This document shows, in pieces, positions 7,352-46,399 of a stretch of 64,000 bases of DNA. Under the pieces are notes generated by a model. That model did no database searches, had not been told where the DNA came from, and worked only from the letters and a program-made list of their open reading frames with translations. The position numbers and the translations under genes were made by a program. Origin of the DNA: Echinarachnius parma (lineage: Eukaryota > Echinodermata > Echinoidea > Clypeasteroida > Echinarachniidae); the NCBI GenBank assembly GCA_037951105.1, contig JBAMJV010002065.1, positions 210,750-274,749 of the forward strand, in the 5' to 3' direction. Each line of letters begins with the position of its first letter. Positions within the stretch are counted from its first letter, which is position 1.

Positions 7352-7357
7352 TTTATT
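7352..7357 (-). terminator. Candidate poly(A) signal of the receptor gene
   Basis: TTTATT on the plus strand is AATAAA on the minus strand, about 330 nt past the stop codon of exon 13b. The hexamer is common in AT-rich DNA, so support comes only from its position. Confidence 0.35.
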
Positions 7358-7683: not shown

Positions 7684-7737
7684 TCACTTCCCATGTCTGT
7701 TTACGACGGCATACTCAGTACTCAGGTTCCACGGCAC
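7684..7737 (-). CDS. Receptor terminal exon 13b (ITSM TEYAVV end)
   Basis: 54 nt including the stop, after a TTATTAACAG acceptor in phase 0. It encodes VPWNLSTEYAVVNRHGK followed by TGA. TEYAVV matches the ITSM consensus TxYxx(V/I). It is the second of two tandem last exons and would be reached only if 13a is skipped. The canonical poly(A) signal at 7352-7357 lies about 330 bp downstream. Confidence 0.7.
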   Translation of the reverse strand: MPWNLSTEYAVVNRHGK

Positions 7738-10700
7738 CTGTTAATAAAGAGAGCATTATTTGATGGAAATTAAACAAAATCACGTCGGAAATTAAAACAA
7801 TCATATTCATAATAATTATAAAAAGTAATATTCATCAAATTTGCCATGGGCGCATACACAATTATGATAGACGAAGTTTAATTTTCATCGTCCCATATTG
7901 TTTCGTATGTGTATTTTTTTCTTTATCTGTTTATTGTTGTCAAATTAACTACTCTGTGTGCATATCAGATTACAGAAATATCCAATGTATTAGCACTTTT
8001 AAGTTTTTGCAATTAAATATAGTTACTATATCCCTAAATCAGCAATACCTGTTGTATGAAAGAAAGTAATTTCAGAAGTTGGTGCTAGCTGCAATTTAAT
8101 GCTGTAAATTACTTCCCACATCTGTTCAAAAATACATACTTGGTATTTGGGTTCAACGGCACCTGTTCACCGAAAAAGAGGAATATCATACAGCGAGTCC
8201 CCATATGAATAATTTAGTGATCTACTCTCAAACCGTTCGACCCCAAACCCCCTCAAATTAGTATTCCCAAATCAACTGACGAAATAAGAAGAGGAACAGA
8301 AGACGAGTTACCGGCATGTGATCGACCCTGGGTGAATTCGCACATCTTTCGTTGACATTCCTTTTGTCAACCACAGCATATTCCACCTTCAATACGGAAA
8401 TTGTATAAATATTTTGTATAATTAAATACATGTTCATTGTATGATTATAAACATTATAATCATTTAGACTTCATTAGAATGATAACGTGACATATTTCTT
8501 ACCAACATGAGAATTTAATTGCTATTACAAAACATATCAAGTTACATTAAAAGTACAAATGGCTGACCTCAACTAGCCAATTAAGCTATAAAAAATTTAA
8601 TTTGTCCATCAAATTTTTCCATGTGGTTCAACATCAGTTTGATTACTTTCTCAACCGAAATCAAAACAGATTTCCTATCACCTAGTCAAATTACAATCAG
8701 AAAGGAAAGGTTCCCATTACAGATTCTGCTTGTAAACCAACACGAATTTGTTTCCTTTCTAAGTAGTGTATGACTGTATTTGTCGAAGCAGAGTTAATAC
8801 TAATTCTGTACGGGAGTATACTTTTGTATACACACAAACTAACCGTAAATATAAAACAAGGAGAGACTAAGTAAGATTGTGTTACCATGCCAGATTCTGC
8901 TTGGACAGACAAGTGCGGAACATCAGATGTGGGGTTATCTAAATTGGCATACATCAGAAGGTCTGCAGAATCCTGCAACAAAAATAATTGTAAAATGTTT
9001 AATTGAGAAACGACGTGTGACGTCACAGCTATCCCTTGCAATGTCAGACAAACCAAACATACATGTATGTGCTCTGGCGTTCGCTAAGAAGGCAATCACC
9101 CAGTTCCAAAAAAGCCCAAATAATAGAACAAGTTGAAGTTTCTTTTTCTTATTTATATATATATAACAACAGAATGTAACGTCACTATTTCGTTACTCTA
9201 AAACATAAATATTTTCTACATTTGGACTTATATAACGTGGCATAAATCGGACGACCTGTATCCTGTTATATAATTTATAAATAAGGAAATACTATATTGC
9301 TATTCAATATTTAAATTGTGTGAATTAAAATTCACGTTGGGTCAGGCCTGCGTTGGGTTCACGTATTTCAATTAAATAATTGTTTTTTTTTTAGAACATT
9401 GTAGTAAATAGATTACATATTCCTTCATCATAAAATTTTAAAATAATGTTTAAAGTCTAATCAAAATGGTGTTTCACTTATCATGCAATCTATACTTCCT
9501 TGTTTTGAATTTAGGGATCATCTAATCTCAAAATGTATACCATGCAAATCGGTTCTCAGCAAACCATTTACGAAATTAAAAATCGATGAAAATAGGAGAG
9601 TTACCAGCATGTTATCGACCCTCGGTGAATTCGCACATCTTTCATTGACGTTTCTTTTGTCAACCACAGCATATACCACCTTTAAAACAGAAATTGCAAA
9701 ACAAATTTCTATAATTATAACATTTACATTGTACAAATGTTTAATTTTATATCATAAACTTGATGAGAATATACTTCACCATACACTCAACCTATTTCCT
9801 TTTAACATGAACATTTCATTGATAATGCAAACATATTAATTGTTTTTAAGTAAAAAATGATAACCTTAACTATGACATCTTATTTTATTACCACATTTTT
9901 TACTTATTTATTATTCACATATTAATCTCTCGTATTTTTAAATAAGAATACTCGAAATCGGTGTCACAATAAAGCCTCATTATATATACCTTTCAAACGG
10001 TGCATTATGTGTAGTGATTATGCAATTGAGGCGATTGCAGTAGCCCAGAGAATAGGGGGAGGCAGGAAGTGAAATCTCGCAAAATGGCCCCAATGCATTC
10101 AATTTACGAGTGCATGACTGTGTTGATCAGTTTTCTAAAGGTTAACATTCTATTGAATACTGCCACCCTTTCAATTCATCAAATTTGTTGAATTGGATAC
10201 CATTTTAATGGAAATTATCTCTTCATTACGATGGCATATTAATCGTAAGGATTATGCAAATGGAGTGTGTGCAGCGAACCGGAATATGGAGATGGGTCGA
10301 GTGTGAAATCAGACAAAAAGATATGGAGTTGACAACAAATCAGAGCGTTGCATATTTTTCGAGCTTTTGGGAGGATTTTTTAGCATTTCAAATAAAATAT
10401 TCATGATCAAATATGATATCAACGGAAAGCCCAACAACTCTTCTGTATGAAAATGTGAAATTTAAAATGATTTTTGTAAAGGGCGGCTGCAGGGAGATGA
10501 ATGGGAGGGAGCCTCAAAAGTGACCCATTTTGAAACGCTCTGATTTCAAGGCACTATTCATGCGTTTTCAATTGAATTCCTCTCATTCATGGCCAACTCA
10601 TTCAAGTCGCATTACATCCTCTACACAATGGTATACAGATACCGACACCAAATCAGAGCGTTTTGAAATGAGTCACTTTTGAGGCTCCCCCACATTCATC

Positions 10701-13700
10701 TCCCTGCAGCCACCCTTTACAAAAATCATTATAAATGTCACATTTTCATACAGAAGAGTTGTTGGGCTTTCCGTTGATATCAATTTAAATCATAAATATT
10801 TTATTGAAATGCTAAAAAATCCTCCCAAAATCTCGAAAAAAATGCAACGCTCTGATTTTTTGTCAACTCCATATCTTTTTGTCTGATTTCACACTCGACC
10901 CATCTCCATATTCCGGTTCGCTGCACACACCCCATTTGCATAATCCTTACGATTAATATGCCATCGTAAGGAAGAGATAATTTCCATTAATATGGTATCA
11001 AATTCAACAATTTTGATGAATGGAAAGGGTGGCAGCATTCAATAGAATGTTAACCTTTAGAAAACTGGTCAACACAGTCTTGCACTCGTAAATTGAATGC
11101 ATTGGGGCCATTTTGCGAGATTTCACTTCCTGCCTCCCCCTATTCTCTGGGCTACTGCAATCGCCCCAATTGCATAATCACTACACATAATGCATCGTTT
11201 GAAAGGTATATAATGAGGCTTTATTGTGACACCAATTTCGAGTATTCTTATTAAAAAATACGAGAGATATGATCGATGAAACTTGAGTTTCCGAACTTTT
11301 TTTGAGGGGTTTAGTTTTGTCGGTGCGTGGTTTATATTATAAACAATACGTGGAATACATTCGATGTTATTTCATTTAATGAGAAAAGGAGTGTTGAATG
11401 GTTACCATGCTAGATTCCACTTGGGCCGACACGTGAGGAACTTCAGACGTGGAGTTATCTAAGTTGGCATACATGAGACGGTCTGCGGAATCCTGTTATA
11501 GATAAGGGAAATGCAATTTCTTTTTGTTTACATTTGAACTATGTGTATTCAAGTAAAAATATGGTTCACACATTCTACTAAGAAGAAGATTGTTCGACGA
11601 ATGCATTCTAACAACCATGACATATGTATCAGAAAAATGGTCATTGAAAACAAAAAACTAAAACAGAAACTTGAGACAAGTCAACGCGCTATGGAGAGAT
11701 AAACTGTCGCAAGATAGGGGAACCCGGGGCAAAGTGGACCAAAAAAATTGGAACAACCAGAACAGGATTACAAAGCAAAGAAAAGCAAAACATTTGGTTT
11801 ATACTTTTACCTTAGGACTACCACTAACAAATGACACTAACAATGTTTCTCAAATAATCCGTTTTATTAAATGCTATGAACTTGAAAAAAATATTAAAAA
11901 TCCATTTTGCCCCGGACCTCCGGGGCAAAGTGAAACACGGAACGGGGCAAAGTGAAACGCTTCCCCAAAAGAGGTTGTCTTCAATGTCAAAACCATTTAC
12001 CTCCTGGTGAATCGTTGTACTTTATGACCTTACACATATGTCCATAGATTTGAATGTCCTGTTTTAATTTAAAGGGAGAATGGAGTAGTAATGTTGTTCA
12101 GTGTGAAAAACTTGAATTTTCATGGTCTCGTTCGTTCTAATTCTTAAATGTAACACAATAATCGCATGACCGACACAATCATTCACGTTAAATGCATTCC
12201 ACTATGCCCCAACCACTTTGCCCCGAACAAGTGAAATTTTACAGACATGCATTACTTCACGTGGGCCAATGATTACTAGCGGTGCTACGATGTATACAGT
12301 TAAGCTTCAGCCCATCCATCATTAATATGGCTTTCGTGATAATTCGGCATAAACACAATATTTTAGCAGATAATATACTTATATTAATTATCGTTTTTTT
12401 ATGTATGAAAAATTGATATTTTCCGTAAAAAGTACACATGATGACGTATTCGCGCAACTCCGGTCAAAAACGATGCATCCTCGTTGCAGTGTTATTGGCA
12501 CATGAACTTAGATAGATGGCAGCACAAACACAAATTTACCGGGCGTGTTTCACTTTGCCCCGCGTTCCATTTTGCCCCGGGTTCCCCTACTTATCCCAGA
12601 TAAGCATTTCCAGGAAATCTCATTTTTAGCATTTTTGTATTCCTTTAATATATTTGTAATACACACAAACAAAAGAATCTAAAAGACAAGCATCAAGTAT
12701 CGACGCAATATTTTACTAATTCGATGAAAAAAACAACAATACAAACTGTGACTACATTTCGCAATGGGCATGTATGATATAGTTCATAGGCGTACCCAGG
12801 GGGAGGGGGGGGGGGGGTTGCGGGTTCAACCCCCCCCCCCCCCCCTTTGACAAAAAAATGGCTGTTTTGGGGGGGTTGAACACCCCCCCTTTACAAATTT
12901 TAGCCGGTCTCGAGACTACTTTTAAGCGGTCTCGAGACTACTTTTAAGCGGTCTCGACCGTTTAAAACTTGGTCTCGACCGACTAAAACCTGGTCTCGAC
13001 CGACTAAAACCCGGTCTCGGCCCCCAAAAATGTCGAAGATCTCCGGTCTCGGGCTCGAAAATGTTGAAAGTACTTGGTCTCGGGTTCGAATTTTTTTTTA
13101 CGGACACCCCCCCTCCCCCTCCCCCCAAGTGAGAGGGGTTTTCAACTTTGAAGGTACATGGCCTCGGTCTCAAAAATTGTTAAAGTTCTTGGTCTCGGCT
13201 TCAAACATTTTGTACGAACACCCCCCCCCCCCCCCCCCCCCCCCCCGAGAGGGGTTTTCAACTCTGCAGGTACTTGGTCTCGGTCTCGAACATTTTGAAA
13301 GTAAATGTACTTGGTCTCGGCTTGGACTTTTTTTACAAAATAACCCCCCCCCCCCCTTTAAAAAATCCTGGGTACGCCACTGATGTAGTTGATACACCCT
13401 GTGATTTACATAAGCGTCCAATGATCACTGTTACAAGTATATACATCGTGTTTATAAATGACGTTTATTTTGGCTGAAGAAAAAAGACGATTTGTTACCG
13501 TCGGGTGATCAATTCTTGGCGATTTAGCACATCTTTCCTTTATCTTCCGTTTGCCAACGACCGCATATTCAACCTATACAAAAAGGCAAATAACTGTATC
13601 ATATCACATTATGTAGAAATGCTAACAATTGGTTGGATAAGTGAAATGTGTAACAAAGAAATAATAAATATTGATTATTAGCAATTTGATTTAAAAACAG

Positions 13701-16700
13701 ACAAGTTCTAATATCAAACTTAAAATAAAACTATTTTTATTCCGAGTGTTCTCCTTTCGAAGTATATTACAAATTTGTTGAAGTAGAGTTACAGAGTTCA
13801 CTTTATTATACTGACACACTTACACTAAATGTCCAATGAGAATAGACATATGAATAATTTGTTTACCATGCCAGATTCTGCTTGGACCGACACGTGTGGA
13901 ATGTTAGATTTGGAGTTATCTAAGGTGTCATACATCATGTCGTCTGCTGAATCATGCTATAAAGAAAAACGAAATTAAGCATTTTGTGTAATCGTATTAT
14001 TGGTGTGAGTAATGTTATCGGTAACATTGTTAGTGACGGGAATGTTGTACGTTCAAAGCCATAGAACAGTATTGGGAAATTATATATTGGCCAAACAAAT
14101 TGATCAACATGGTTGAAATCGTATAGACGAGGGTGTATGTGATACAATATGAATCATAATATTGTAAAACGCTGAAAATTAAGGAAAATTCCATGCGCCG
14201 TCGATTAGATTGAGCGAAAAGTTCATAGCATAACGGTAGTGTTTAGTATTGGTATTTCCCGAAATGCCCCCCGATATTTTTTGTGAGATAATGAAAAACT
14301 GACTGTCAAATTCGAAAGAACATACAAAATTAATGGAAGAATTAACTTTATTTGATCAAAATCGGTTTAGAAACAGCTGAAATATCGATAAATATATTTT
14401 TATTCAAAATGTTCTTCACCGGCAATCACCGGGCGATATTTAGACTTTTTAGAAAAAATTCAAAAAATGCTCGAAGACTACTTTGAAAAAAATCAGAATA
14501 GGTATTTAAAAAGTAGTTGATAATATCTCTATTGAATCATTATTTCAACAAATATTAAATGCACAATTTTGTATGAAAAAAGGCTAAAACCAATGATTTT
14601 TTTAAATAGCGCCCTCTTGAGTTCTAACGGCTCTTTTTGAATAACAGGGGTTTTACTTAGTCGTTTGTAATTGTGTATACTTTTCGAGCATAATGGTGCA
14701 GGTTTTGGTTACTAAAGTTAAGTTTGACCAATACTCAACTATCCCTTTAAATGCCCGGGCGTCCCCGGCCGCGAGTCTAGTAGATAGTCGAATATTATAG
14801 CCAATCTGCCACGCGTGGCGAGGTTTGCATGCAATGTGCGGACGAACATTTCAAATTACAACCGTCGGCGATATCGATCTGTTACCATATATTTGTTTCG
14901 AGAATGCAAATTAACCCATTGATAGGTGGTTTAGTTGCCAAATTTGTGTAATCCCATATAAGTAAAATAAATTATTTCATATGTTCGGTCAAAAAAGGTG
15001 CATATTTCATTATTTTGTGTGGGCCGTTTCCCAAAACTATAATTTAGCTTTAAAGAGATCAGTTGATAGATTACTACAGAAGGTATAGAGTATTTATGTC
15101 ATGTATATTGACAAATATTTGACAAAAACAATGAAACATTTAAAGGGGAATTTTTGTTTAAGTTACAAAGAGTGTGCCTCCCAATACGTCCGACCAGGCT
15201 ACACCATGAACATAATTGTATCGAGAAATTGACTTGCTGCACATATGACACGCGTGATAAAAACCTCGATACTCTCGGGAGATTCTTGCTGAGGAATCTG
15301 GACCGGAGTCCGCGCCCGTCGTCCTAGAAACCCGGACGGCGTCGACGGTACGGATGGGACGGGGCGGAAGACATGGTGGTGACGCTGTCCTGGTGACGAG
15401 GACGCTCCCATGACGTCGAGGATGGTCGCCTGATGTCGATGACCATTCACGGGCGGAAGTGGCAATTCTCTGCTAGTCGTTGTAGGGGGTGGTAATTGTG
15501 TTGAGCGTGAGCCTATGGGATAAATATTAACTATTGATATGGAAAGAAATCCTGATTCGTACATAATCATTATTATGGTGATGCTAATCTAGAGAGAAAG
15601 CTTAACGGAAGGATATCGAGGATTGTCATGAGATGTCGATGCTAGTCCCCGATAGTTGTTGGAGGTGGTGGTCTTTGCGTCAATATTCCGCCATTGTACA
15701 TGTATTCAATATCGTATGGTGGTAGGGAAATACTGTTACTACTGTTATTATGTCATGTACATGCTACACGCATGTGCGCACAATGGCAACATTGGCAAAA
15801 TATAATACAATGTTAATTTGAGTTTTTAAGGACGTTTTATACGATTATTGGGAAATGGTGAATACTGTGTGGCATGACTGGTCATGCCATTCAGTCGTGC
15901 TGGTTGCGTATACATGGATGAGACAGCCATCACAGCTAAGGTGGTATTCCCGAGGGGGGGGGGGGGGGTATGGGGGCACTCGAATCGTCTTTTGGCGGGC
16001 TGTGCCAACTTCGAAACGGGGGTCTAGGAAGCGGATGAGATGGGGAAAATAGGGTTTTGGGAGCTGTCCAGCGCGGTGGTCGAAGAGGTCCAGAGAGCAA
16101 CCGTAAGAGAGTTTTATGTGCAGCAGACGGCATCACGGAGTCATGAGTCTATTGAGTGGCTCCTTTTTTTATAGGTCTAAAGAGCAGCTATTTCTTAAAA
16201 CCCATATTCTATAGAGCAGACATTTTTTGTTTAATTCATAGGTCTATTATCAGCTACTTTTGAAGATAATGAGACCATTGATAGCGGTACTGGGCTCTGA
16301 TAAAGGGGGTCTTCAAAGCGGCACATACACGTATTGCCAATATACATGAATGCCCCCATCCCCCACCCCCGATAGTATCATTCAATGCTTAGGCAGACAT
16401 GACAGATGTATGCTTTGTTTCAATATATTGCTAAGTGCTATAGTTAAACAATTATAGATAAATAGTATAAATCACATAAATTAGATAGCAACGTGTCTCT
16501 CAATCATCACAATCATAATAATGTACTCTCTAGTCTTCTGGCAAAGTAAACACATACATTGTAATAAGATTAAGTCGGGAAGTGCTGCATTACCCTTTCT
16601 TTTCATGACGCACTTGATGGTGACGATCATACATACAAGGAGGATGACTGTAAGACCGACTGACGTAATAATCACGACCAGCATGGTATCTGATCGTAAT

Positions 16701-19700
16701 ATAAAATAAATCAAACAAGGACAAAACGATAGTCATGTCAAGAAACGACATATTTTACGTATAGGAATAAGTCATATATCATAAATAGGAATACACTGTA
16801 TATTGAGAGAAACTGTGACATTTATTTGTTTACTCCATATTCACAAATCATCATCACATGTTTTTTTAAACTTTAGTTTCCGCATTGAATATTCATAAAA
16901 TAAACAAAAATAATGCTTATTTAACGATTATCTGAATGTACAATACGTGGCTTCTCTGGTTGGTGGATAGCTATGGCGGGATTTTATGCAATTTATCTTA
17001 ATCACGATATACGTCTTGTTAGGCTTTGAAAGAGGAAGATGAACAGGGTTATATTTATTATTTAGTTCTTAAACTTATGAATTAACTGTTTGTATACGAC
17101 GTTTAATTTCCATTTCCAGGTATAGGCCCACTTTAAGTGTACACTAACATCTGTATAACATTAAAAACATGAAACATTGATACACTTTTTAACAAAGAGA
17201 TATAATAAATAACTACTTATTAATTTGATTTGTATTTTCCAAGACTAGTATCAATTGCCCTTCTCATGTGTGACTTCACGTTATTGATGAAATGAGGTGA
17301 ATAATTTGCTAACTGACACTCAGGTCACTCAACAAAGGTAATTCTTATGTGCGCATGTATAAAATGTCTCTCAATTTAAATGAACAATATAATGTAATTA
17401 TGATACAACTGTTCTATATTGTAACAAAATCAAGTTCCTTTATACAGCTAGGCAATGGTAAACCACATCCTTTTAATATACATGTACATCAATATAATTT
17501 CATTTTGAATGATTTCATTGCAAATTTACCTCCTTTTCGTGATTTTTAACAATTTGAATAAGTGGATAAAACATAGCCGGATGCGTACAATATGTTTCGT
17601 GCACTAAAACGGGTTGGTTTGTTTATTCATAATTCTATGTTCGTGCACTAAAACTTACGCGCATACTCACACGAGTGGACACGCAACTTCATCTATGACG
17701 TCACCGCTGTTTCTTGATCAACCACATTTGAATTTGACCGCCAAAATACTTTGATTCGGCAAGACCAATAGGTGATTAGGTATGAATAACAATTTATAGT
17801 GGGGTAGTCTGCAGTTAAGCCCTGCGCTATACAGGGTGGCCCAAAAAAACGGAACGGGGCACTTCCCAAAACATTGTAACAAATATATTATGTCCAGGGC
17901 GCTGTGATTGACACCATGTCATGTCCTCTTTTTTGACAATTTTCACCCAGCCAGAGCTTGATGAATGGCACGTACCGCCTTTCATAGCGTTAAGCATCGC
18001 GCATTATTGTTAGTGTGCACTCAGCCGTGTGCCGAGAGAAAAGGCATGTTCGTACAATGGTATTACGTGCAGGGAGTGCGATGTAACTGGCGCTGACGAG
18101 GTAGAAATTGACAAAAATTGGCACCTGACATGGTCTCACTCACAGCGTCCTAAAACAAAAACTACACCACCAAAATTTCTGTTCTTGGTATCATTTTTCA
18201 TTGGAAAAAAAAACACCCTATCCGACTGACATAAACATTTTGGTACTTTATTTTGGGAAGTGCCCCGTTCCGTTTTTTTTTTGGGCCACCCTGTATTGTA
18301 CATAAACTGTGCTGCCTTGCACGCAATAAAAGGAAGGTATACTGAGACACAAGCAAGATCGCGATAATGGGTATGAGCGATCATGAATGTGCTGAGCATC
18401 ATAACGTATACTAAGGCAAGCATCGATGTCTTAATTTACAATAATTTTGTAATACTTCTGACCTGGGTTTTGTGAAGACATATTTTCAGTTCCTTGAATG
18501 CCACTGGTATCTATCATTCCCTTTGAATCAGTAGTGATAGAGACACTTGTAACTTGAGTAGCAGCCGTAGTGGTCGGAACTGCAAAACAACATCATTTGA
18601 AAATATTAATGTCATAATACTAATTGTTTGCAATTTGTTAGAAAATAAGATAATAGATTTATTAAAGTGTGATAAACCAGTATGGTTTTACATTTAATTT
18701 TGGTTTGTTGACCATATTAAAGGGATAGTTGAGTTCTGGTAAGGAGAGTACAGTTTTAGTGAAACTGAATTTTAGTAACCAAAACCTGCATCATTACATT
18801 ACAAACTAATAGTTATAACTAGAAAGGAACACAACATTACAAATGACGTAGTAAAGATCATGTTATCATTCAAAAAGAGCCGTTAAAACGTAAGAGGGCG
18901 CTCTCTAAACACTCATCGGTTTCAACCATTTTGAATAAAATATTGTGCATGTGATGCTTTGTTGAAATAGTGATTAGATAGAGAAATAACCAACAACTAT
19001 TTAAATACCTATTTTGTAACTTTTTTGAAAAGAGGAAGCATTTTTTTGAATTTTTAACGGCTGGTTCAAAATTCTCTAATAAACCCGGGCCCCGGGTTTA
19101 TTACAAATTGTTATATTTATGGATATTTCAGCCGTTTCTGAACCGATTTTGATCAAACAAAGATGATTTTATTGTTTAAATATTATGCTCTTTCAAATTT
19201 TACACTCAGTTTTTTATTACCTCACAAACCAATTAAGTAGTCTAGCGCCCTCTCTACCAAAACTCAACTTTCCCTTTAAGCATTCATTGAATTATAACTT
19301 TACAGTGATCTTATTATTATATACTCCGCAAAAAAAGAAACTGGACACTTGTATAAGTCGAAATATTTCATACTAATGTACGATAAAGTCTACATTATCA
19401 TATATCAAGTTAAAGAGGATTTAGTCCTCTACATGCAGGGCATAAATTAAAGGTGTAATCGTTCATGCATGAAATGCCATGGTCAGTTAACAATAGCAAG
19501 GTCTGTTTTCAAAAATAGCAAAAACAATGGAAGACCACACCATTCGACTGAAATGATAGTAAGCGTTTCACTTAAAACATGATGTGCGGGGCAAGTAAAT
19601 TATGACATTATTCAACTTTATTGTTATGAACAAACTCTGAAAAGACAAATGTTTCAATAAAACAGAGCTAGGTTATGAGAGCATCATCATACTGGTCTGT

Positions 19701-22700
19701 ATTATAGGCATGAAGCTTGTCTGTTTTATGTGTCCCCTGCAATTTTAACCATAGTTACCTAGAGAAATGTCATGTTAAAGACTGCCCAACTGTTTGACCA
19801 AGGGTGACATCAGGTTTTGAAGATCTTTGGACTACGGTAGAATTCTTGAGAATAATTTATACAATTTTTCATGCTGAAATAAGGGCACAAACTGTTGTTT
19901 CGACTGAAAAACCTTTGCCATGGAATTCCCCATTTTGTTACGTTTTGATAAAACATAAAACCTATAACGTTCACAATGTGTCTTCATTCATACTTTTTAT
20001 TGAGATGAAGATAGAAAAGGTCACATTTGTAATGAAAAATTATGCCATGGCATGAATTTAGCGTTTTAGATTATGCTTAGCAACATTTGTATGGTTGAGT
20101 GGATGTTCCATGTTTGCTATTTTTTAAAACAGACCTTGCTGTGGTTAATTGGCATGAATGATTTCATCTGGATTTCATGTCAATATTGAAGAGGGTCATT
20201 TTATCTTTAATTTGATATACAATATCATATATTCTATCGTTAATGAATATGAAATATTTGGTCTTATACAAGTGTCCAGTTTCTTTTTTTGCGGAGTATA
20301 TTAATGATGCATGTGTCAATTGAAGTGTTTAGGTTAATAGTTTGTTTGGTTTTGTTGCCGTGACACAAAGACAAAACAGTTATCTCTATGAGATAAATAT
20401 ATTGCATTTGTGATATGTTGTTCAATCATATAAAATACTGCCAACGATGAAGTAAGAATCCTGTGTCTACTTAATAACATTGACACACTTTCCTAATTTG
20501 GATGTCATGAATATAAACAAACTTCCAATCCGTCTGCAATAAATGAAGATTGACTATAATCGACTATGCTGACATGAGTCTACAAAGGGATTATATTGGT
20601 TAGTTATAATGCACGGCAGTTAGTATTATGTTTTAAAACAAATAAAAATTTGCAGCCTGGCGATCTGTTAGGTTGTTAATATAGTTATTGTCATATCTGA
20701 GTGGTATTTTTCTAAATCATACTCGCCATTGATTAGTAGTTCCATGCTAAGCTGCACATCACTGTTGTTTTTGACAAAACATTTGATGTTCGTTCCATTT
20801 CTCCCTTCGATCGCAGTGAACGTCATTGTGGTGTAGCTGGTGACTAGACTTGAATCAGATTCTGCCTCATTTCTCGTCATGCTGTACACATGGACTATGT
20901 CTGACTGATTGCAACCTGTTTGCCATTCAAGTGTTACTGCAGGCATCACAGGTGCGTCCGTCCCGCATCTCAGAGTCTTGTTCATCCCTACCATCACAGG
21001 TATAGTGACCTTATGATTGTATGTTGTATTCGTGTCCATATCAAGGATATTCAGACTATATGGGGGTACTTGTGATACAAGGAGAACAATAAATATTATG
21101 TTGAAAATAACTAAAGGATTTATTGATATCATCACATTTATAACTATTAAACAAAATCAGATTATCAGCTCATATGGCAACTTGCGGTTCCTTGAATCAT
21201 ATGTTGTAAAAGTTTTACTTGACTTCGACGACCGTATTATCAGTCCTTGTTTTACCATTCAACTGTAAAAATGAATTACAGGGACTTGGTAACATTGTCA
21301 AAATCCTCAAAATCCAATTTCCCTTTCGTTAAAGGGATAGTTGACTATTGGTATAGGGGGGCACTTCACAAAATATTGTTTGTGAGATAATGAAAAATTA
21401 ACTGTCAAATTGGAAAGAACATACAATTCTAGTGACAGAATAAACTTTATTTGAACAAAATCGGTTTAAATATACGGCTGAAATTTCCATAAACATATTT
21501 TTATTCCAAAATTCTTCAGTAGGGGATATTTTTACTTTTTAGAAACATTTTTTAAAATGCTTAAAGACTACTTTGAAAAAAATCTAAATAGGTTTTTAAA
21601 AAGTTGTTGATGATATCTCTATCGAATCATTATTTTAACAAAACATTAAATGCCCAATTTTCTATGAAAAATGGCTCAAACAAATTATTTTTTTAGAGAG
21701 CGCCCTCTTGAGTTGTAACGGCTCTTTTTGAATGATAACAGGGGTTTTACTTAGTCGTTTGTAATTGTGTATACTTTTTGAGCATGGTGAAGTTATAACT
21801 ATTATTTTGTACCGTAATGGTGCAGGTTTTGATTACTAAAGTTAAGTTTGACCAATACTCAACTATCCCTATAAAAATATATTGACAATTGAGGTGTTCA
21901 GATCTCAAATATCCACTGGATCGTCCAAACCGTGTACAAATTGAGTGCAATGATTTAGTGAATATCACTGTGCATTTCTGTTCATTAGTCGGCCGTCCAT
22001 TTAACTTAAAATTTTCACACAGCACCCAGTGGACATATCAGATAACAACAATATACATTGTACCAACCACTCATCACTTTTTGCACATGTCAACAAAGTT
22101 ACTAGAGCCCTTTAACCCAGTTATGTAAATGTTGGATATTTCATGGATCTAAGCGATTATGAGCTTAAAAATAAAAAAAATCTTAATATCACAAGCATGT
22201 TGTCTTGTGTTATAGCTGTATTGCTATTTTGATCTTCATACGTTTTCCAAAGCGAAACCATTATATGTTTAAAGCTTTGATATTGTCTGCATCACCTTGA
22301 GTCTAAAATAAAGTGTAACAAGTTTTTGAAATTAAATCAAAATAAACATTTGAACATATCCAACCAGTGGTACATGTATGAACATATAACTTGTATTACA
22401 TGGCAAATGTGGGCGTTTTGTTTCCTTTGACTGGCTGAGGTGGTGGAATATTCAATGTTCAATGTTTTATTTCTCATGTCACCATGTCGACGGGTATTGA
22501 AGAAAATAACATTTAGCACAATATAACATATTTGCATGTTCGAAACATATATCACAACATGAATACACAAGAAATAGAAAGTAAAAATGCAACCTAAAAC
22601 CAACAGGATATATGTTAATTACAATTTACAAATTGATTAAAAGAAAACTGTTTGAACATGTGAAGAAAATGTAATTTAATTATTTACGAGGAGTACCTAT

Positions 22701-39310: not shown

Positions 39311-39369
<59 letters not shown>

Positions 39370-40338: not shown

Positions 40339-40376
<38 letters not shown>

Positions 40377-42178
40377 GAAGTACTACTACAACTTCTACTA
40401 CATGTACTACTCAAAATAATAATAATAAAGAGAATATATGCACCAATTATATCTTTTGAAAAATGCTAAGGATGCAGTTATCATGGTTAAAGGGATAGTT
40501 GAGTTTTGGTATAGAAGAAGATAATGAAAAATTGAGTGTCAAATCCGAAAGAGCATAACATTTTAAGGCAAAATAAACTTTATTTGATCAAAATCGGTTC
40601 AGAAATGGCTAAACAAATCCATAAATATAACCATTTGTAATAATTGTGGAGCCCCATATTCGATAATTTTGAACCAGCCGTTAATAACTTTTGAAAAATA
40701 CTTCCTCCTTTCAAAGATTTACACAATATTTTTTTAAATAGCTGTTGATTATCTCTATATCTAATCACTATTTAGACAAAATATCACATGCACAATATTT
40801 TATTTAAAATGGTTCAAACCGATGAGTGTTTAAAGAGCGTCCTTTTGAGATTTAACGGCTCTTTTTTTTTATGATAACAGGCTTTTGACTTAGTCATTCG
40901 TAATTTTGTATTCCTTTCGAGCATGGAGGAGTTATATAATAGTTTGTAACGTAATGGTGCAGGTTTTGGTTACTAAAATTCAATTTGACCATAACTGTAC
41001 GCTCTTTACCGAAACTCAACTATCTCTTTAAGTTTATCTATACACACGTTCGCATATTGCAATGTCATATTATCAACATAACAAAATGAGGAAATCATAA
41101 TCATAGAAAAACAAAATCAAGTAAATAAAAGTTCTGGTGACCTTTTATTATGAAACTTGATTCTTTTTAGTTGTTATAATAGTATGAGTACCGTTTGTAT
41201 AACTATTCATAAGAAACCAAATCTCAATTTCTTTATATCCCATAATTGTATTCCCCCCCCCCCAAAAAAAAAAAAAAACAATATATACAAAAATAAGGCA
41301 AATTATAACATGGGAACATTTGATATGTCGACGTAAAGAATAATTAAATAAACGTGGAACGAATAATTACCTTGTATGTAAAGCGTGATGCTTGCAATAA
41401 CAGACTGATTACCTCCATCAATATTACATGTGTAAATCCCTTCTTCAGATGGTGATAAGTTGATTTTTTTCAGAGAACTGCGAACGTGCCCAGATATGAA
41501 CTCCAACGTATGCTGCCAATTGCTGTCTTCTATAATCCTTGGTGTATTACACTCCAAATATCTTCGGCATCTAAATAATGTATCATTCTTTCGCGACCAT
41601 ACTAACAGCCTGACATCTGTAGGTTCAACACCCTGAGGCAACGTACAGACGAGCGACACATTTTCACCGGCAGCTTTCCTCAAGACTGTATCTGGGTTGT
41701 CCTCACCATTGACAACAGCTAGATAAACGAGAGAATCGCGATTATGAAAATTATTGTCACTATGAAAATATTAAAACAGTAGCATCTACAATTTACTACT
41801 ATTTTTTCTGTAAATCATTGGGTAGTAAGAGGAATAAGACAGGAGAGAACAAAGGGGGAGGGGTGACATATTTTACAAAATAGTGGATTATAATGATTCT
41901 CTTTGTACCAAAATTAAATAGAAGACTCTTTAAAGATTCAATTGTTTTTTGCCTCATTTCCAACAGAAAAAGTACACACTAAACAAAAAAACACAAAAAA
42001 AAATCAATTTATAAGGTATAGAACTAATAATAATTAAACATAACATAAATTAGAATCGATATCATTATACAATAATGATATCAATAATTGTCTTCAGCAG
42101 GAGAGAAAACCATATTCTTTCATACTTACAACGAACAGATACACCCAGAGAAACTAATAATGCACTGATAAACAACAT
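7684..42178 (-). CDS. Ig-superfamily type I receptor with tandem ITIM exons (gene model, 13 exons plus an alternative last exon)
   Basis: Inferred gene spanning exons E1 to E13, listed separately. Coding parts sum to 49+348+342+117+96+248 = 1200 nt up to the end of E6 (400 codons), then phase-0 exons of 90, 75, 87, 75, 87, 75 and 54 nt, giving about 580 residues. Layout: signal peptide (1-16), Ig V-like domain (about 17-132), second Ig domain (133-246), Ser/Thr-rich stalk (247-285), transmembrane helix (about 287-310), proline-rich tail, then tyrosine motifs near residues 409, 433, 463, 487, 517, 541 and 572. ITIMs of this kind recruit SHP-type phosphatases in known inhibitory receptors; that function is inferred here. 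Every junction has an AG acceptor and a GT donor, except one GC donor after E3 and a weak GTTTTT donor after E6. Phases agree throughout: 1-1 in the extracellular part and 0-0 in the tail. The link between E2 and E3 across 20 kb is the weakest point. Confidence 0.78.
8109..8162 (-). CDS. Receptor terminal exon 13a (YVFL end)
   Basis: 54 nt including the stop, after a GTGAACAG acceptor in phase 0. It encodes VPLNPNTKYVFLNRCGK followed by TAA. TKYVFL has the TxYxx spacing with Leu at +3, so it is at most a relaxed switch motif. It is paralogous to exon 13b (VP.N..T.Y...NR.GK) 425 bp further downstream. Using this exon would exclude 13b. Confidence 0.7.
   Translation of the reverse strand: MPLNPNTKYVFLNRCGK
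8312..8386 (-). CDS. Receptor exon 12: cassette 3, ITIM VEYAVV exon
   Basis: 75 nt, phase 0-0, between a TATTGAAG acceptor and a ATGCCG/GTAACT donor. It encodes VEYAVVDKRNVNERCANSPR, then VDHMP. The ITIM core is perfect. It is the last cassette exon before the two alternative terminal exons. Confidence 0.78.
8886..8972 (-). CDS. Receptor exon 11: cassette 3, YANL exon
   Basis: 87 nt, phase 0-0, after TTGTTGCAG and before GGCATG/GTAACA. It encodes DSADLLMYANLDNPTSDVPH and then LSVQAESGM. It carries the same LMYANL core as exon 9. The 119-residue minus-strand ORF around it is mostly intron read-through and is not a separate gene. Confidence 0.78.
9605..9679 (-). CDS. Receptor exon 10: cassette 2, ITIM VVYAVV exon
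   Basis: 75 nt, phase 0-0, between a TTTTAAAG acceptor and an ATGCTG/GTAACT donor. It encodes VVYAVVDKRNVNERCANSPR, then VDNML. VVYAVV is a perfect ITIM. It is closely similar to exon 12, and the similarity continues a short way into the flanking intron, which indicates a recent cassette duplication. Confidence 0.78.
9925..11268. repeat. 1.34-kb near-perfect inverted repeat in a receptor intron
   Basis: The arms, about 620 bp each (9925-10548 and 10648-11268), are reverse complements with only scattered mismatches and enclose a loop of about 100 bp. Outer ends are ATCTCTCGTATTTTT and its complement. It lies in the intron between receptor exons 9 and 10. It has no coding capacity and fits a large fold-back element. 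A transcript would form a long hairpin. Confidence 0.8.
11406..11492 (-). CDS. Receptor exon 9: cassette 2, YANL exon
   Basis: 87 nt, phase 0-0, after TATAACAG and before AGCATG/GTAACC. It encodes DSADRLMYANLDNSTSEVPH and then VSAQVESSM. LMYANL fits the ITIM consensus, and YAN also fits the pYxN ligand of Grb2-type SH2 domains, so it could serve either role (inference). Confidence 0.78.
11717..12587. mobile_element. TA-flanked MITE with GGGGAACCCGGGGCAAA TIR
   Basis: Left end GGGGAACCCGGGGCAAAGTG and right end complement GGGGAACCCGGGGCAAAATG, with TA at both borders as in Tc1/mariner-like elements. Internal copies of GGGGCAAAGTG occur near both ends. Lies in the intron between receptor exons 8 and 9. 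Confidence 0.68.
12785..13382. mobile_element. hAT-like element with poly-G/poly-C blocks (copy 2)
   Basis: Ends CATAGGCGTACCC and GGGTACGCCACTG; flanks ATATAGTT and ATGTAGTT form an 8-bp target duplication (7/8). Same family as 5276-5836, with C runs and repeated GGTCTCGA words. Lies in the intron between receptor exons 8 and 9. Confidence 0.72.
13499..13573 (-). CDS. Receptor exon 8: cassette 1, ITIM VEYAVV exon
   Basis: 75 nt, phase 0-0, between a TTTGTATAG acceptor and a CCGACG/GTAACA donor. It encodes VEYAVVGKRKIKERCAKSPR, then IDHPT. VEYAVV fits the ITIM consensus (I/V/L/S)xYxx(I/V/L) exactly. The basic KRKIKER stretch after the tyrosine recurs in exons 10 and 12. Confidence 0.78.
13867..13956 (-). 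CDS. Receptor exon 7: cassette 1, YDTL exon
   Basis: 90 nt, phase 0-0, after a CTTTATAG acceptor and before GGCATG/GTAAAC. It encodes HDSADDMMYDTLDNSKSNIP and then HVSVQAESGM. The core MxYDTL is a near-ITIM (Met instead of I/V/L/S at -2). It is homologous to exons 9 and 11 over almost its whole length and is the most diverged of the three. Confidence 0.75.
14229..14750. mobile_element. TTAA-type MITE, family B (worn left end)
   Basis: Right end ATACTCAACTATCCCTTTAA matches the family; the left end is mutated (TAACGGTAGTGTTTAGTATTGG). The interior matches 21329-21874. Lies in the intron between receptor exons 6 and 7. Confidence 0.6.
15265..15512 (-). CDS. Receptor exon 6: proline-rich cytoplasmic segment
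   Basis: 248 nt, starting in phase 1 after CCCATAG and ending in phase 0 at ATCGAG before GTTTTT. It encodes GSRSTQLPPPTTTSRELPLP..., with RELPLPP matching a class I SH3 ligand (RxxPxxP), a His cluster (RHHHVF) and RRARTP. The donor is weak beyond AG/GT, but it is the only site I found that gives phase 0 for the next exon and avoids the read-through stop at 15199. GC content is clearly higher than in flanking DNA. A decayed copy of its first half lies just upstream at about 15610-15690. Confidence 0.65.
15610..15690 (-). pseudogene. Decayed tandem copy of receptor exon 6
   Basis: The minus strand here retains the order of exon 6 sequence (CCACC, CCAAC-ACTA, CTAGC, CATCGACATC, ATCCTCGA), but without an open frame or splice sites. 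It lies between exons 5 and 6, as expected for an old tandem exon duplication that was not kept. Confidence 0.5.
16594..16689 (-). CDS. Receptor exon 5: transmembrane helix
   Basis: 96 nt, phase 1-1, after a CGATCAG acceptor and before AAGG/GTAATG. It encodes DTMLVVIITSVGLTVILLVC, MIVTIKC and then VMKRKG. This is one hydrophobic helix followed by a basic stop-transfer segment, which sets the tail on the cytosolic side (type I topology). No charged residue lies within the helix, so pairing with an ITAM adaptor through a membrane salt bridge is not suggested. Confidence 0.8.
16695..17828. other. Receptor intron, no further feature seen
   Basis: AT-rich intron sequence between exons 5 and 4, with no recognised element before the MITE at 17832. 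Confidence 0.45.
17832..18293. mobile_element. Tc1/mariner-like MITE, CAGGGTGGCCCA family
   Basis: Left end CAGGGTGGCCCAAAAAAACG and matching complement at the right (TIR over 30 bp), TA on both sides. Relatives are at 31501-31740 and, diverged, at about 60540-60710. Lies just downstream of receptor exon 4 in its intron. Confidence 0.75.
18463..18579 (-). CDS. Receptor exon 4: Ser/Thr-rich stalk
   Basis: 117 nt, phase 1-1, between a TTTTGCAG acceptor and a CCCAG/GTCAGA donor. It encodes PTTTAATQVTSVSITTDSKG and continues through MIDTSGIQGTEN to SSQNPG. The composition is rich in Thr and Ser with no Cys, as expected for an O-glycosylated membrane-proximal stalk. It sits between the Ig exon and the transmembrane exon, in frame with both. 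Confidence 0.72.
18717..19279. mobile_element. TTAA-type MITE, family B
   Basis: Starts TTAAAGGGATAGTTGAGT and ends ACTCAACTTTCCCTTTAA. TTAA at both ends. Lies in the intron between receptor exons 4 and 3. Confidence 0.7.
19319..20300. mobile_element. Long-TIR element, ATACTCCGCAAAAAAAG family
   Basis: Left end ATACTCCGCAAAAAAAGAAA and right end TTTCTTTTTTTGCGGAGTAT; the TIR extends about 40 bp through GGACACTTGTATAAG. Borders are TA-rich, which suggests a Tc1/mariner-type origin. About 0.98 kb, non-coding; inner segments are also partly inverted. Lies in the intron between receptor exons 4 and 3. Confidence 0.7.
20727..21068 (-). CDS. Receptor exon 3: second Ig domain
   Basis: 342 nt, phase 1-1. 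The acceptor is ATCACAAG and the donor must be GC (AATG before GCGAGT), because the nearby GT site at GAGTATG would leave phase 2 and hit a stop in the next exon. The domain has NKTLRC (B-strand Cys), VTLEW (C-strand Trp), NIKCFV (F-strand Cys) and LSMELLIN (G strand), with sequons NTT, NKT, NQS, NGT and NNS. The acceptor region is also open in frame upstream and encodes a hydrophobic, signal-like segment (MMISINPLVIF...VLLVSQ, ATG at 21135), so an alternative start here is possible. Confidence 0.78.
21276..22115. mobile_element. TTAA-type MITE, family A, interrupted by family B
   Basis: Outer ends ACAGGGACTTGGTAAC and GTTACTAGAGCCCTTTAA match 463-840. The family B copy at 21329-21874 is inserted within it, so B moved after A at this locus. 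Confidence 0.68.
21329..21874. mobile_element. TTAA-type MITE, family B, nested in A
   Basis: Starts TTAAAGGGATAGTTGACT and ends AATACTCAACTATCCCTATAA (end worn). The interior shows the same 'acggctgaaat...' and 'gagagcgccctcttgag' blocks as the copies at 14229, 18717 and 40487. Confidence 0.7.
22116..23238. other. Non-coding stretch in the large receptor intron
   Basis: AT-rich; no gene or repeat was recognised. Confidence 0.4.
23455..24835 (+). pseudogene. Decayed LINE reverse-transcriptase C-terminal part (CR1/Jockey-like), interrupted
   Basis: Pieces of the region after the RT palm remain on the plus strand: INDELNWNTHIDETYAKAAK, then LAQLRRAGLSQ and IRAVLEYACQVFHRRMT before the interruption, then RIQNRALRIIASHLSYAEAL and RNIAYNVRN...FIPRCLYNLN after it. 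These match the usual order (DLxWxxHI, LxRAG, LEYACPVWH, IQxRALRII, SFIPxxxxLWN) of CR1/Jockey-type LINE ends. Several frameshifts and stops show it is dead. It is split by the fold-back element at 23788-24459 and by a short retroposon-like tail ending in AAATAAATAAAAT at about 24560-24585. Confidence 0.7.
23788..24459. mobile_element. Fold-back element of 16-bp tandem repeats (copy 2, inverted)
   Basis: Starts GGTTACAGTCCG and ends ATCGCACCC, the reverse complement of copy 1 (3186-3780). The core (CCTTTCCCTCCCTTGGCC) is also inverted. Flanks TGTCGTCT and TGTTGTCT give an 8-bp target duplication (7/8). It was inserted into the LINE relic. Confidence 0.75.
25165..25312. repeat. (CTT)n microsatellite
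   Basis: Interrupted CTT repeats with TTG and CCT variants. The Leu/Phe-rich plus-strand and Lys/Arg-rich minus-strand ORFs here are repeat artefacts. Confidence 0.85.
25690..25850. other. Short GC-rich island of unknown nature
   Basis: About 130 bp of GC-rich sequence (CCTTGCGGCGGGGTGGCGAG...GTCGCGTCCCCCGCCTCGCA) within AT-rich DNA, just left of an element boundary. No ORF, tRNA box pair or known motif was recognised. Confidence 0.3.
25923..26265. mobile_element. Element of the AAGCAGCTCTCACAC family (right end worn)
   Basis: Left end TAAAGCAGCTCTCACACTTT followed by GGCGAGTTG and many CGAGTTG/ACTCG words, as in 37506-37968. The right end is only weakly recognisable (CGAGTTGCCAATATTTTGG). 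Confidence 0.5.
26288..27315. mobile_element. TIR element built of degenerate CATATGGG repeats
   Basis: Starts CCCTGGTAGCAATCGTAGCA and ends TTTGCTATCTGGGAATGG, ends that resemble TCCCAGGTAGCA of the 60-bp-repeat element. Both flanks are degenerate repeats of CCCATATGGG, with a unique core at about 26820-27200. The Gly/His/Trp-rich ORFs are repeat by-products. A further block of the same words is at about 27405-27600. Confidence 0.5.
27405..27600. repeat. Second block of CATATGGG-type degenerate repeats
   Basis: Words such as GGGCCCCATGTGGG and CCCATATGGGCAGTCCATCTG continue the pattern of 26288-27315, ending near TTTTGCTCACTGGG. Probably part of a second, damaged copy. Confidence 0.5.
27700..28195 (+). 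pseudogene. LINE relic: RT palm and C-terminal fragments
   Basis: The plus strand encodes GALFLEFKRAFDSVNHIILL, then after a frameshift GSELAWFTNYLSDRNQ, matching the (L/F)xDxxxAFDxVxH...WFxxYLxxRxQ segment of LINE reverse transcriptases. Downstream pieces read SFEYLGSILLNNLPL and TTSIASFKRQCKLL, the usual C-terminal tail. The YADD catalytic region is missing, and about 150 bp ending in (AAGAC)n (27880-28030) has been inserted or substituted between them. Confidence 0.6.
28304..28347. repeat. 44-bp near-perfect palindrome centred on GTCGAC
   Basis: The arms TGACGTCAGCCGTGCATCA and TGATGCACGGCTGACGCCA differ at one position. It lies about 450 bp upstream of the Crypton start codon and may be part of that element's 5' region, or a separate fold-back. 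Confidence 0.75.
28801..29752 (+). pseudogene. Crypton-type tyrosine recombinase gene (broken)
   Basis: The plus strand starts MVNFVLLTEDELDNFLD, then continues in shifted frames as KYAVNRLEAFAKCVGLNSLE, ELDKLLSRFYAGLRKDDGTL, then MKYGIHKYFL...HKNPVTKEDM. The catalytic end is NHSLRATTVT (Arg), VTGHKSESS (His) and LKHYA (Tyr). This is the DUF3504 / KIAA1958- and ZMYM-like domain derived from Crypton DNA transposons. At least two frameshifts break it: one near 28875, where NTK should run into LTKYAVN, and one near 29300 after VYFGHEK. It stops in the LKHYASQLRF region, 6 bp before a TIR element begins. The 33510-33819 ORF may be its displaced C-terminus. Confidence 0.75.
29812..30770. repeat. 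60-bp minisatellite array, about 15 units
   Basis: The unit GACGTTGGACAATCTCGTTG-GACCAACGTTGGATCAACAT-CGGTAACTCACAGTAAAATG repeats with small changes and occasional deletions towards the right end. The period is a multiple of 3, so it stays open in several frames and yields repetitive 20-residue pseudo-proteins. Confidence 0.9.
30975..31292 (-). mobile_element. Retroposon-like insertion with poly(A) tail on the minus strand
   Basis: A run of T at 30990-31004 followed by unique sequence reads as a minus-strand poly(A)-tailed insert. It is absent from copy 2 of the host element. The family is not recognised, and the small minus-strand ORF is not credible. Confidence 0.4.
31501..31740. mobile_element. 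Tc1/mariner-like MITE, CAGGGTGGCCCA family, short copy
   Basis: Left CAGGGTGGCCCAGAAATAAC and right complement CAGGGTGGCCCAGAAATAAC, identical over the first 20 bases, TA at both sides. 240 bp, nested in the 60-bp-repeat element. Confidence 0.8.
33001..33525 (+). pseudogene. LINE C-terminal fragment with (GAT)n-type 3' end (CR1/L2-like)
   Basis: The plus strand encodes LTYEERLRALDLHSLFYRRR, RGDMIQVFRIL, TRGHTLELFHPRCRLNIRLN, FFSLRIINDWNNLPEDVI and SVDVFKRKLDQFW, a standard CR1/L2 LINE C-terminus ending at 33376. The 3' UTR ends in GATGATGATGATGATG at 33503-33522. It is 5'-truncated directly against CCAACG repeat sequence, so the open frame upstream is accidental read-through of the minisatellite. 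Confidence 0.75.
33510..33819 (+). CDS. ORF fragment, possible displaced Crypton C-terminus
   Basis: After the LINE tail the frame reads ARTSAHKQKEMSNNIAKGLA, and ends SSSTTTNTVQHFHFHGPVTF-INRGSINL. In the Crypton/KIAA1958-like family the recombinase domain is typically followed by a short stretch like QKREMS. From memory of the family, I infer this is the rest of the gene at 28801-29752, separated by the element and LINE insertions. No start codon of its own is convincing. Confidence 0.45.
33929..34068. repeat. Tandem duplication of a ~93-bp segment
   Basis: AACCAGCAGCGGCACAGCAT...AAAACTTGTTATATA occurs at 33929 and again at 34022. The linker ATTTTGGATTGAATTACACT...ACGGCGAGTT recurs once more at 36425, after two inserted elements, so those elements landed inside this repeat. 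Confidence 0.75.
34071..35690. mobile_element. Tc1/mariner-like TIR element with nested inserts
   Basis: Left CAGTGCGAGTAAAAAAGAAA and complementary right end; the TIR runs about 48 bp through ACGAAACCGGACTTTGATAG. TA borders. It contains an inner inverted repeat bounded by AAGTCCCCCCTAATCAAAAT (34547-34892) and a further element at about 35067-35622 with CTAGAGAACCCGGAC ends. Confidence 0.75.
35067..35622. mobile_element. Nested TIR element, CTAGAGAACCCGGAC ends
   Basis: Left CCGTGGGTGCTAGAGAACCC and right complement CCGTGGCTAGAGAACCCGGA. Lies within 34071-35690. Non-coding. Confidence 0.6.
35695..36422. mobile_element. TA-flanked TIR element, CGTCGCACAAAAAGTTCCG family
   Basis: Left CGTCGCACAAAAAGTTCCGC and right complement CCTCGCACAAAAAGTTCCGC; the TIR continues through AATCGAGGTTTGC for more than 50 bp. 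Internally a block with TTGGTATCATTGGAAAGCGT is duplicated in direct and inverted form. It adjoins 34071-35690, sharing a TATA border. Confidence 0.75.
36576..36749. repeat. 174-bp hairpin-forming palindrome
   Basis: The arms AAGGAAATAATAAATGATTT...CCGTCAGTACTATTGAAC are complementary almost end to end, with a few mismatches and a short loop around GCTACTTCGTAGC. Resembles a short fold-back MITE. Confidence 0.75.
36880..37468. mobile_element. Element of the AAGCAGCTCTCACAC family, ACTCG-rich (left end uncertain)
   Basis: Right end CACTCGCCAAAGTGTGAGAG-CTGCCTTA matches the family. The left half is ACTCG-rich and the right half CGAGT-rich, so the whole is a diffuse inverted repeat. The exact left boundary is unclear. 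Confidence 0.5.
37506..37968. mobile_element. TIR element, AAGCAGCTCTCACACTTTGG family
   Basis: Left TTAAGCAGCTCTCACACTTT and right complement TAAAGCAGCTCTCACACTTT; identity continues through GGCGAGTTGCATATACGAGT to ACACGAC, a TIR of about 45 bp. Non-coding interior. Confidence 0.75.
38125..38245 (+). CDS. Candidate first exon encoding a basic AT-hook-like peptide
   Basis: ATG at 38125 opens MPKGRAKTGVRGTPAWPRRG, then RPGSKKPAAIEDNGN, followed at 38246 by a strong GTGAGT donor (phase 1). RRGRPGSKKP resembles an AT-hook core (RGRP). The segment is GC-rich against its surroundings. No downstream exon was found. It could be a host gene's first exon on the plus strand, opposite to the receptor, or a transposon exon. 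Confidence 0.3.
38800..38955 (+). mobile_element. LINE/SINE 3' tail
   Basis: GCAAAGCGCCTAGAG...TAAGCGCTATATAAAT followed by AT-rich short repeats (ATAATTATAATATTATC) is a typical 3' terminus of invertebrate LINEs and the SINEs that share it. The body is not recognisable. Confidence 0.5.
39288..39433. repeat. (TAC)n microsatellite, left part
   Basis: ACT/TAC repeats with some AAT units. Continues at 40341-40378 beyond an inserted element. The Val-rich and Ser-rich minus ORFs are artefacts. Confidence 0.9.
39434..40340. mobile_element. MITE with TIR TATAGGTTTTCCC, long copy, inserted in a (TAC)n tract
   Basis: Left TATAGGTTTTCCCACCCATT and right ATGGATGGGAAAACCTATA are complementary. The body is rich in AATTCGTCAT (left half) and ATGACGAATT (right half), so it is a diffuse inverted repeat. 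Microsatellite is on both sides. Confidence 0.75.
40487..41031. mobile_element. TTAA-type MITE, family B
   Basis: Starts TTAAAGGGATAGTTGAGT and ends ACTCAACTATCTCTTTAA. Lies about 340 bp downstream of receptor exon 2 in the large intron. Confidence 0.7.
41371..41718 (-). CDS. Receptor exon 2: N-terminal Ig V-like domain
   Basis: This 348-nt exon (phase 1-1) starts after a TATCTAG acceptor and ends CAAG before GTAATT. It encodes SVVNGEDNPDTVLRKAAGEN, then VSLVC (B-strand Cys), LLVWSRK (C-strand Trp), LSPSEEGIYTC (F-strand Cys) and ITLYIQ (G strand), the hallmarks of an Ig V-set fold. Two extra cysteines (FRCRRYLEC) lie between the core pair. N-glycosylation sequons include NVS, NDT and NQS. 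It is probably the ligand-binding domain of the receptor. It could belong to a separate gene if the 20-kb intron is not real. Confidence 0.8.
42130..42178 (-). CDS. Receptor exon 1: start codon and signal peptide
   Basis: The minus strand reads MLFISALLVSLGVSVR from an ATG at 42178 with A at -3, then a GTAAGT donor at 42124-42129, leaving phase 1. The short hydrophobic stretch is a typical signal-peptide core. Phase 1 matches the next acceptor at 41718, which completes a serine codon. Two very short upstream ORFs (MSVKE-stop and MIC-stop) lie in the presumed 5' leader and could dampen translation. No TATA box or transcription start was identified. Confidence 0.72.
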
Positions 42179-46330: not shown

Positions 46331-46399
46331 CCTTTCAAAAAGATGAACATTTTCTGGACATCAAGGGTGATAGATAAATATTTACGTCAATCGTCAAGC

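Follow-up and report, generated by a model that had tools for sequence, protein, structure and literature searches.

The minus strand of a 64,000-nucleotide stretch of Echinarachnius parma DNA, the whole of which is here called the window, raises two linked questions: whether fourteen short exons belong to one real gene, and what a receptor would do with a tail whose tyrosines all lie in a ladder of small exons. By the evidence of the letters themselves, the stretch very probably holds a real gene. The favored reading, to which a probability of roughly two in three is assigned, is a functional type I receptor gene of the Ig superfamily with a multivalent and mainly inhibitory (SHP-type) cytoplasmic tail.

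Exon chain and splice sites

The fourteen exons run from 42178 to 7684 on the minus strand, with AG/GT borders except for one GC donor, and yield an open frame of 580 aa with either last exon (T1 or T2). In the order of a type I receptor they encode a signal peptide, an Ig V-set and then a C2-set Ig domain, a Ser/Thr stalk, a transmembrane helix and an SH3-ligand tail, after which come the series D1-V1-D2-V2-D3-V3 and finally T1 or T2.

E1, 42130..42178, minus strand: carries the start codon; signal peptide MLFISALLVSLGVSVR; donor GTT|GTAAGT in phase 1; N-terminal hydropathy 2.06 over 19 residues
E2, 41371..41718, minus strand: Ig V-set (Pfam); phases 1-1; additional close Cys pair Cys67/Cys73
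E3, 20727..21068, minus strand: Ig C2-set, CD80-like (Pfam C2-set_2); phases 1-1; GC donor; moderate acceptor
E4, 18463..18579, minus strand: Ser/Thr-rich stalk; donor CAG|GTCAGA
E5, 16594..16689, minus strand: transmembrane helix (residues 290-308, hydropathy 2.97) with a KRK stop-transfer; moderate acceptor
E6, 15265..15512, minus strand: juxtamembrane proline-rich tail; RELPLPP and RPVPSVP fit the class I SH3 ligand pattern; entered in phase 1, left in phase 0; weak donor
E7 (D1), 13867..13956, minus strand: MMYDTL, acidic pair upstream; start one codon longer than in D2 and D3
E8 (V1), 13499..13573, minus strand: VEYAVV, strict ITIM
E9 (D2), 11406..11492, minus strand: LMYANL, strict ITIM, also YxN
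E10 (V2), 9605..9679, minus strand: VVYAVV, strict ITIM
E11 (D3), 8886..8972, minus strand: LMYANL, strict ITIM, also YxN
E12 (V3), 8312..8386, minus strand: VEYAVV, strict ITIM
E13 (T1), 8109..8162, minus strand: alternative last exon; TKYVFL (TxYxxL); stop TAA
E14 (T2), 7684..7737, minus strand: alternative last exon; TEYAVV, strict ITSM; stop TGA
AATAAA, 7930..7935, minus strand: possible poly(A) signal 3' of the T1 stop
AATAAA, 7352..7357, minus strand: possible poly(A) signal 3' of the T2 stop

All fourteen exons are free of internal stops and frameshifts. The five introns from E1 to E6 are in phase 1 and all later introns in phase 0. T1 and T2 are alternatives because each carries its own stop, and each isoform therefore has seven tyrosines.

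When each exon end was given its top-scoring splice site and phase was ignored, every one of the 13 junctions was compatible, that from V3 to T2 included. At a chance of 1/3 each this corresponds to P = 6e-7, a value that is too small and overstates independence: the tail exons are paralogues, and the exon cores were placed after the exons were known. The search extended as far as the first in-frame stop or some 150 nt, with a single candidate at five of the 13 acceptor ends, and the scoring matrices represent the common animal consensus. At three ends (the E3 acceptor, E6 donor and E11 donor) the top-scoring site differs from the modelled one with identical phase, which makes these borders less sure. 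The E3 donor (ATG|GCGAGT) is the sole non-GT donor of the gene. The modelled E6 donor (GAG|GTTTTT) is weak, with a score of 0.0 that beats only 62% of the GT sites in the window, and a stronger alternative at 15205 leaves the phase unchanged. The E3 and E5 acceptors are moderate, scoring above 75% and 77% of AG sites, respectively. The preliminary description had mapped fourteen minus-strand exons and asserted a fit at every junction. The exons do lie at the place and on the strand it gave, in consistent reading frames, and the fit stands for the phases; it is less clean at the splice sites, given the GC donor of E3 and the weak donor of E6.

The intron between E2 and E3 spans 20.3 kb and is rich in tandem arrays. 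Long arrays of a nearly identical 60-bp tandem unit lie about 23 kb apart, at 29819-30747 in this intron and at 53782-54768 upstream of the gene. The same intron contains a plus-strand open reading frame (28866-29309) with a weak QRICH1 match (E 9e-5, below the cut-off), which is perhaps a tyrosine-recombinase transposon. Further along, the intron between D2 and V2 includes a strong foldback (9925-11268) whose arms measure 414, 181 and 62 nt and are complementary at 96%, 86% and 97%, respectively.

Ectodomain and searches for relatives

Tested alone, E2 matches the Pfam V-set family with E 1.2e-5 and 25.9 bits, just below the cut-off of 26, and E3 matches C2-set_2 with E 4.2e-5 and 23.9 bits, above the cut-off of 21. 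In the joined protein the two matches drop to 23.0 and 19.6 bits, both below the cut-offs. A search of PDB sequences returned 28 matches at E <= 1, of which 25 bear Ig-type names by reading; all are weak (best E 0.00097) and include JAML (E 0.0038) and the poliovirus receptor (E 0.16). Single-sequence fold models reached a mean pLDDT of only 43.9 for E2 and 42.9 for E3, and Foldseek searches with them found 84 and 141 matches, respectively, up to E 10, but not one with E <= 0.001. Models of such low pLDDT, and the Foldseek results obtained with them, count neither for nor against an Ig fold. The layout of an ITIM-bearing type I Ig receptor (signal peptide, Ig domains and a single transmembrane helix) is found here with Ig matches close to the Pfam cut-offs, and the receptor is very likely of Ig type. 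Both the pair of Ig domains proposed earlier, for which a Pfam test had been suggested, and the proposed succession of leader, Ig domains, stalk, helix and SH3-ligand tail are borne out, with the qualification that the joined protein scores below the Pfam cut-offs. E2 has an additional Cys pair six residues apart (67/73) and E3 an additional Cys185; these could form a second disulphide and support a covalent dimer.

Neither the whole protein nor its first 318 residues found a homologue at E <= 10 in the protein database (7672 and 1249 candidates). An open reverse transcriptase piece of a retroelement, at 45516-46334 on the minus strand (Pfam RVT_1 E 4e-24), has a best match of 68% identity in the same database, where 7869 of 7993 scored candidates matched it at E <= 0.001. 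Such abundance means that the database contains elements of this kind; a shortage of animal genes in it is a guess. A crude Ig pattern applied to open segments of at least 60 aa gave 15 matches, one of them E2; the other 14 were set aside by eye, two of them lying in open reading frames that Pfam did not call Ig. The pattern missed E3 and is hence not sensitive, and it is with this pattern that no third Ig exon was found in the window. Pfam found no Ig family match in 14 other open reading frames (four tested at E <= 1 and ten at E <= 0.1), and Rfam found no match in the window.

Duplicated exons and tyrosine motifs of the tail

Each isoform has seven tyrosines in 266 tail residues, all within the exon ladder and all in YxxPhi motifs, with spacings of 24/30/24/30/24/31. 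Five of the seven (VEYAVV, LMYANL, VVYAVV, LMYANL and VEYAVV) conform to the strict ITIM, (I/V/L/S)xYxx(I/V/L). None of 100,000 composition shuffles of the tail contained five ITIMs (mean 0.38, either isoform), a comparison to be read with the descent of the five from two exon types in mind. The last tyrosine sits in a strict ITSM (TEYAVV) in T2, but just in TxYxxL (TKYVFL) in T1. The first, MMYDTL of D1, is neither ITIM nor ITSM; the acidic pair preceding its YxxL (SADDMMYDTL) is reminiscent of the hemITAM consensus. A ladder of up to seven ITIM- or ITSM-like motifs had been described before. Its assignment of VEYAVV and VVYAVV to ITIM and of TEYAVV to ITSM is confirmed, all three being strict matches, and LMYANL can be added as a strict ITIM; the count of seven holds for YxxPhi, whereas T1 and MMYDTL fall short of the named motifs.

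The exons that carry these motifs are duplicates. Across seven exon pairs no gap column falls inside an exon, whereas every one of the 14 flanks, 120 nt long, has between 6 and 34 (D1's extra first codon and the T stops were left out of these comparisons). Five contrasts, all among the duplicated tail exons and sharing D3 and V3, gave a pS of 0.39 and a pN of 0.13 (32/82 synonymous versus 38/293 other sites; Fisher 5e-7), and single pairs gave dN/dS values from 0.14 to 0.54. The other two sense frames showed no such signal (pN/pS 0.92 and 1.10), and the antisense frames gave 1.03, 0.43 and 1.47, the value of 0.43 belonging to the frame whose third positions coincide with those of the gene. Of the six frames, the predicted one thus shows codon-level selection, that antisense frame shows it more weakly, and the other four do not show it. 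The low pN relative to pS in the predicted frame indicates that the duplicated exons evolved as protein. By sequence, the three D-V exon pairs arose by duplication and are kept under purifying selection. The closest DNA identities are those of D2/D3 (84%) and V2/V3 (91%), so that pair 1 looks oldest and pairs 2 and 3 youngest. No D, V or T relatives beyond 3 + 3 + 2 copies were found among the best six matches per query and strand, on both strands. Besides YAVV, all three V exons keep KRx(V/I)xERCAxSPR(V/I)D, which suggests a second function for this stretch, such as a Ser-Pro phosphosite.

A further alternative is that the gene is in decay, or is a damaged copy within a family whose intact members lie elsewhere. 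The GC donor of E3, the weak E6 donor and the array-filled 20.3-kb intron would all be in keeping with decay, but the fourteen exons are free of stops and frameshifts, and the tail exons, to which the selection test applied, bear the mark of codon-level selection. Decay is considered very improbable.

A second alternative starts from the YxxPhi form of all seven motifs. The protein might be a nectin-like adhesion molecule whose motifs serve chiefly endocytosis or adhesion turnover, an idea that also draws on the V-set then C2-set_2 order and on the weak matches to JAML and the poliovirus receptor. Five of the seven sites, however, have V or L at -2, which endocytic motifs are not known to need; the crude pattern disclosed no third Ig exon, and the C-termini are not PDZ-like by eye. 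Nectins, as described in PMC7286890, combine three Ig domains with a PDZ motif, or in the case of PVR with an ITIM. An adhesion role of this kind is unlikely, if less so than decay.

Proposed signalling output and comparison with known systems

The preferred reading, an inhibitory receptor, can be cast as a sequence of steps. Ligand binding would lead a Src-type kinase, perhaps held at RELPLPP, to phosphorylate the tail, and each D-V pair, with its tyrosines 24 residues apart, might then dock one SHP-2-type phosphatase by its tandem SH2 domains. Three such docks in series and the terminal ITSM-like site would give a graded inhibitory output, and the two YANL sites could also recruit Grb2 through YxN. 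The ITIM-ITSM pair of PD-1 spans about 25 residues, and it is the closeness of the D-V spacing to this value that allows each pair to be read as one bidentate dock. In PD-1 the ITIM binds the N-SH2 and the ITSM the C-SH2 domain of SHP2, according to PMC12905495, and tandem SH2 binding is described as spacing-dependent (PMC7337045). Botryllus is reported to have an SHP-1 homologue along with almost the entire ITIM/ITAM machinery (PMC12065747).

Splicing may add a further layer. All D and V exons start and end in phase 0 and are hence skippable without a break in frame, although phase only permits skipping. Splicing could thus govern how many docking sites a tail has and of which kind, with an upper limit of 2^6 x 2 = 128 tails (none observed), and the choice between T1 and T2 would exchange TxYxxL for a strict ITSM. 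A tentative extension, possible but held well below the inhibitory reading itself, is that the single gene works as a splicing-tunable inhibitory rheostat, in which six phase-0 docking exons, each skippable independently of the others (five with an ITIM and one hemITAM-like), and two alternative terminal switch motifs would let each cell choose dock number and kind. As part of the same proposal, the evolutionary unit would be the duplicated D-V exon pair and not the single ITIM.

The main rival is a dual-function or mainly activating scaffold, in which YxN would recruit Grb2, D1 would act as a hemITAM, PxxP would gather SH3 proteins and the ITIM-like sites would use SHP-2 positively. The motif mix lends itself to this, since YANL occurs twice and D1 has its acidic pair ahead of YxxL. 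Strict ITIMs at five of seven sites argue the other way, as do the 24 residues from the D to the V tyrosine, more than a classical ITAM allows, and the want of an acidic residue at -2 in D1. What gives this rival its standing is catfish IpLITR 1.1b, which with a like mix of ITIMs, ITSM and YxN has both inhibitory and stimulatory output, inhibiting killing and promoting phagocytosis in the account of PMC4810170. Some Botryllus FcoR loci can, moreover, exchange an ITIM for a hemITAM via splicing (PMC12065747). Such a scaffold is judged improbable, though it fares better than the adhesion and decay readings, and the output of the receptor is probably inhibitory or dual.

If expressed, the gene, for which no relative was found, would present inhibitory-receptor logic that grows as a two-motif exon pair is duplicated, and would offer a natural series relating docking-site number to strength of inhibition. 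ITIM-type motifs have been reported in Botryllus and Hydractinia allorecognition genes (PMC12065747), and the receptor therefore bears on the age and convergence of ITIM signalling. In searches of an open-licence library no account of a repeated ITIM exon pair was found, a weak negative, and a phrase search for five, six, seven or eight ITIM likewise returned nothing.

KIR and FcR-like proteins are type I Ig receptors with tail ITIMs. Teleost LITR and mammalian LILR share this plan, and LITR 1.1b combines ITIMs, an ITSM and YxN (PMC4810170). The present gene differs from all four in that two motif exons alternate as a pair three times before one of two last exons. The protein database search found no sequence relationship to any of them.

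Dscam has about ten Ig domains and fibronectin III domains, whereas the joined protein has two Ig domains and, by Pfam, no fibronectin match. The likeness lies in the tails, where shrimp and Daphnia Dscam have skippable exons and alternative stop-codon exons; Daphnia Dscam can include or omit an ITIM or ITAM, and shrimp Dscam is described there without an ITIM (PMC6851185). Shrimp tails thus show the principle of skippable exons and alternative stop exons in an Ig receptor, but the tail-exon table of that source has no repeated ITIM exon pair (PMC6851185).

The closest system in layout and size is Botryllus FcoR, a type I protein of 520-610 aa with a V-type Ig domain and a long tail, which carries an ITIM, a hemITAM or the core Yxx(I/L/V) and in some loci swaps motifs via splicing (PMC12065747). 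FcoR, by that account, includes two C2 Ig domains as well as a sushi domain (PMC12065747), whereas Pfam finds no sushi domain and one C2-set domain in the joined protein. Hydractinia Alr proteins are, by description, invertebrate allorecognition candidates with ITIM and ITAM-type motifs (as cited in PMC12065747). Oyster CgIgIT2, likewise from an invertebrate, is a transmembrane Ig receptor that carries an immunoreceptor tyrosine motif, but it is described with five Ig domains and, in place of an ITIM ladder, an activating ITAM (PMC11999971). PVR (CD155) and the nectins resemble the present protein in their V-type then C-type Ig order and in the ITIM of PVR; they have three Ig domains (V, C, C) and one ITIM in PVR (PMC7286890), against two Ig domains and five strict ITIMs here. 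The closest in kind are LILR/LITR-type receptors, Botryllus FcoR and Hydractinia Alr, and those defining features of FcoR, nectins and Dscam that were tested were not found here. As far as the literature searches tell, the unusual parts of this receptor are its duplicated two-motif exon pair and its alternative switch-motif ends.
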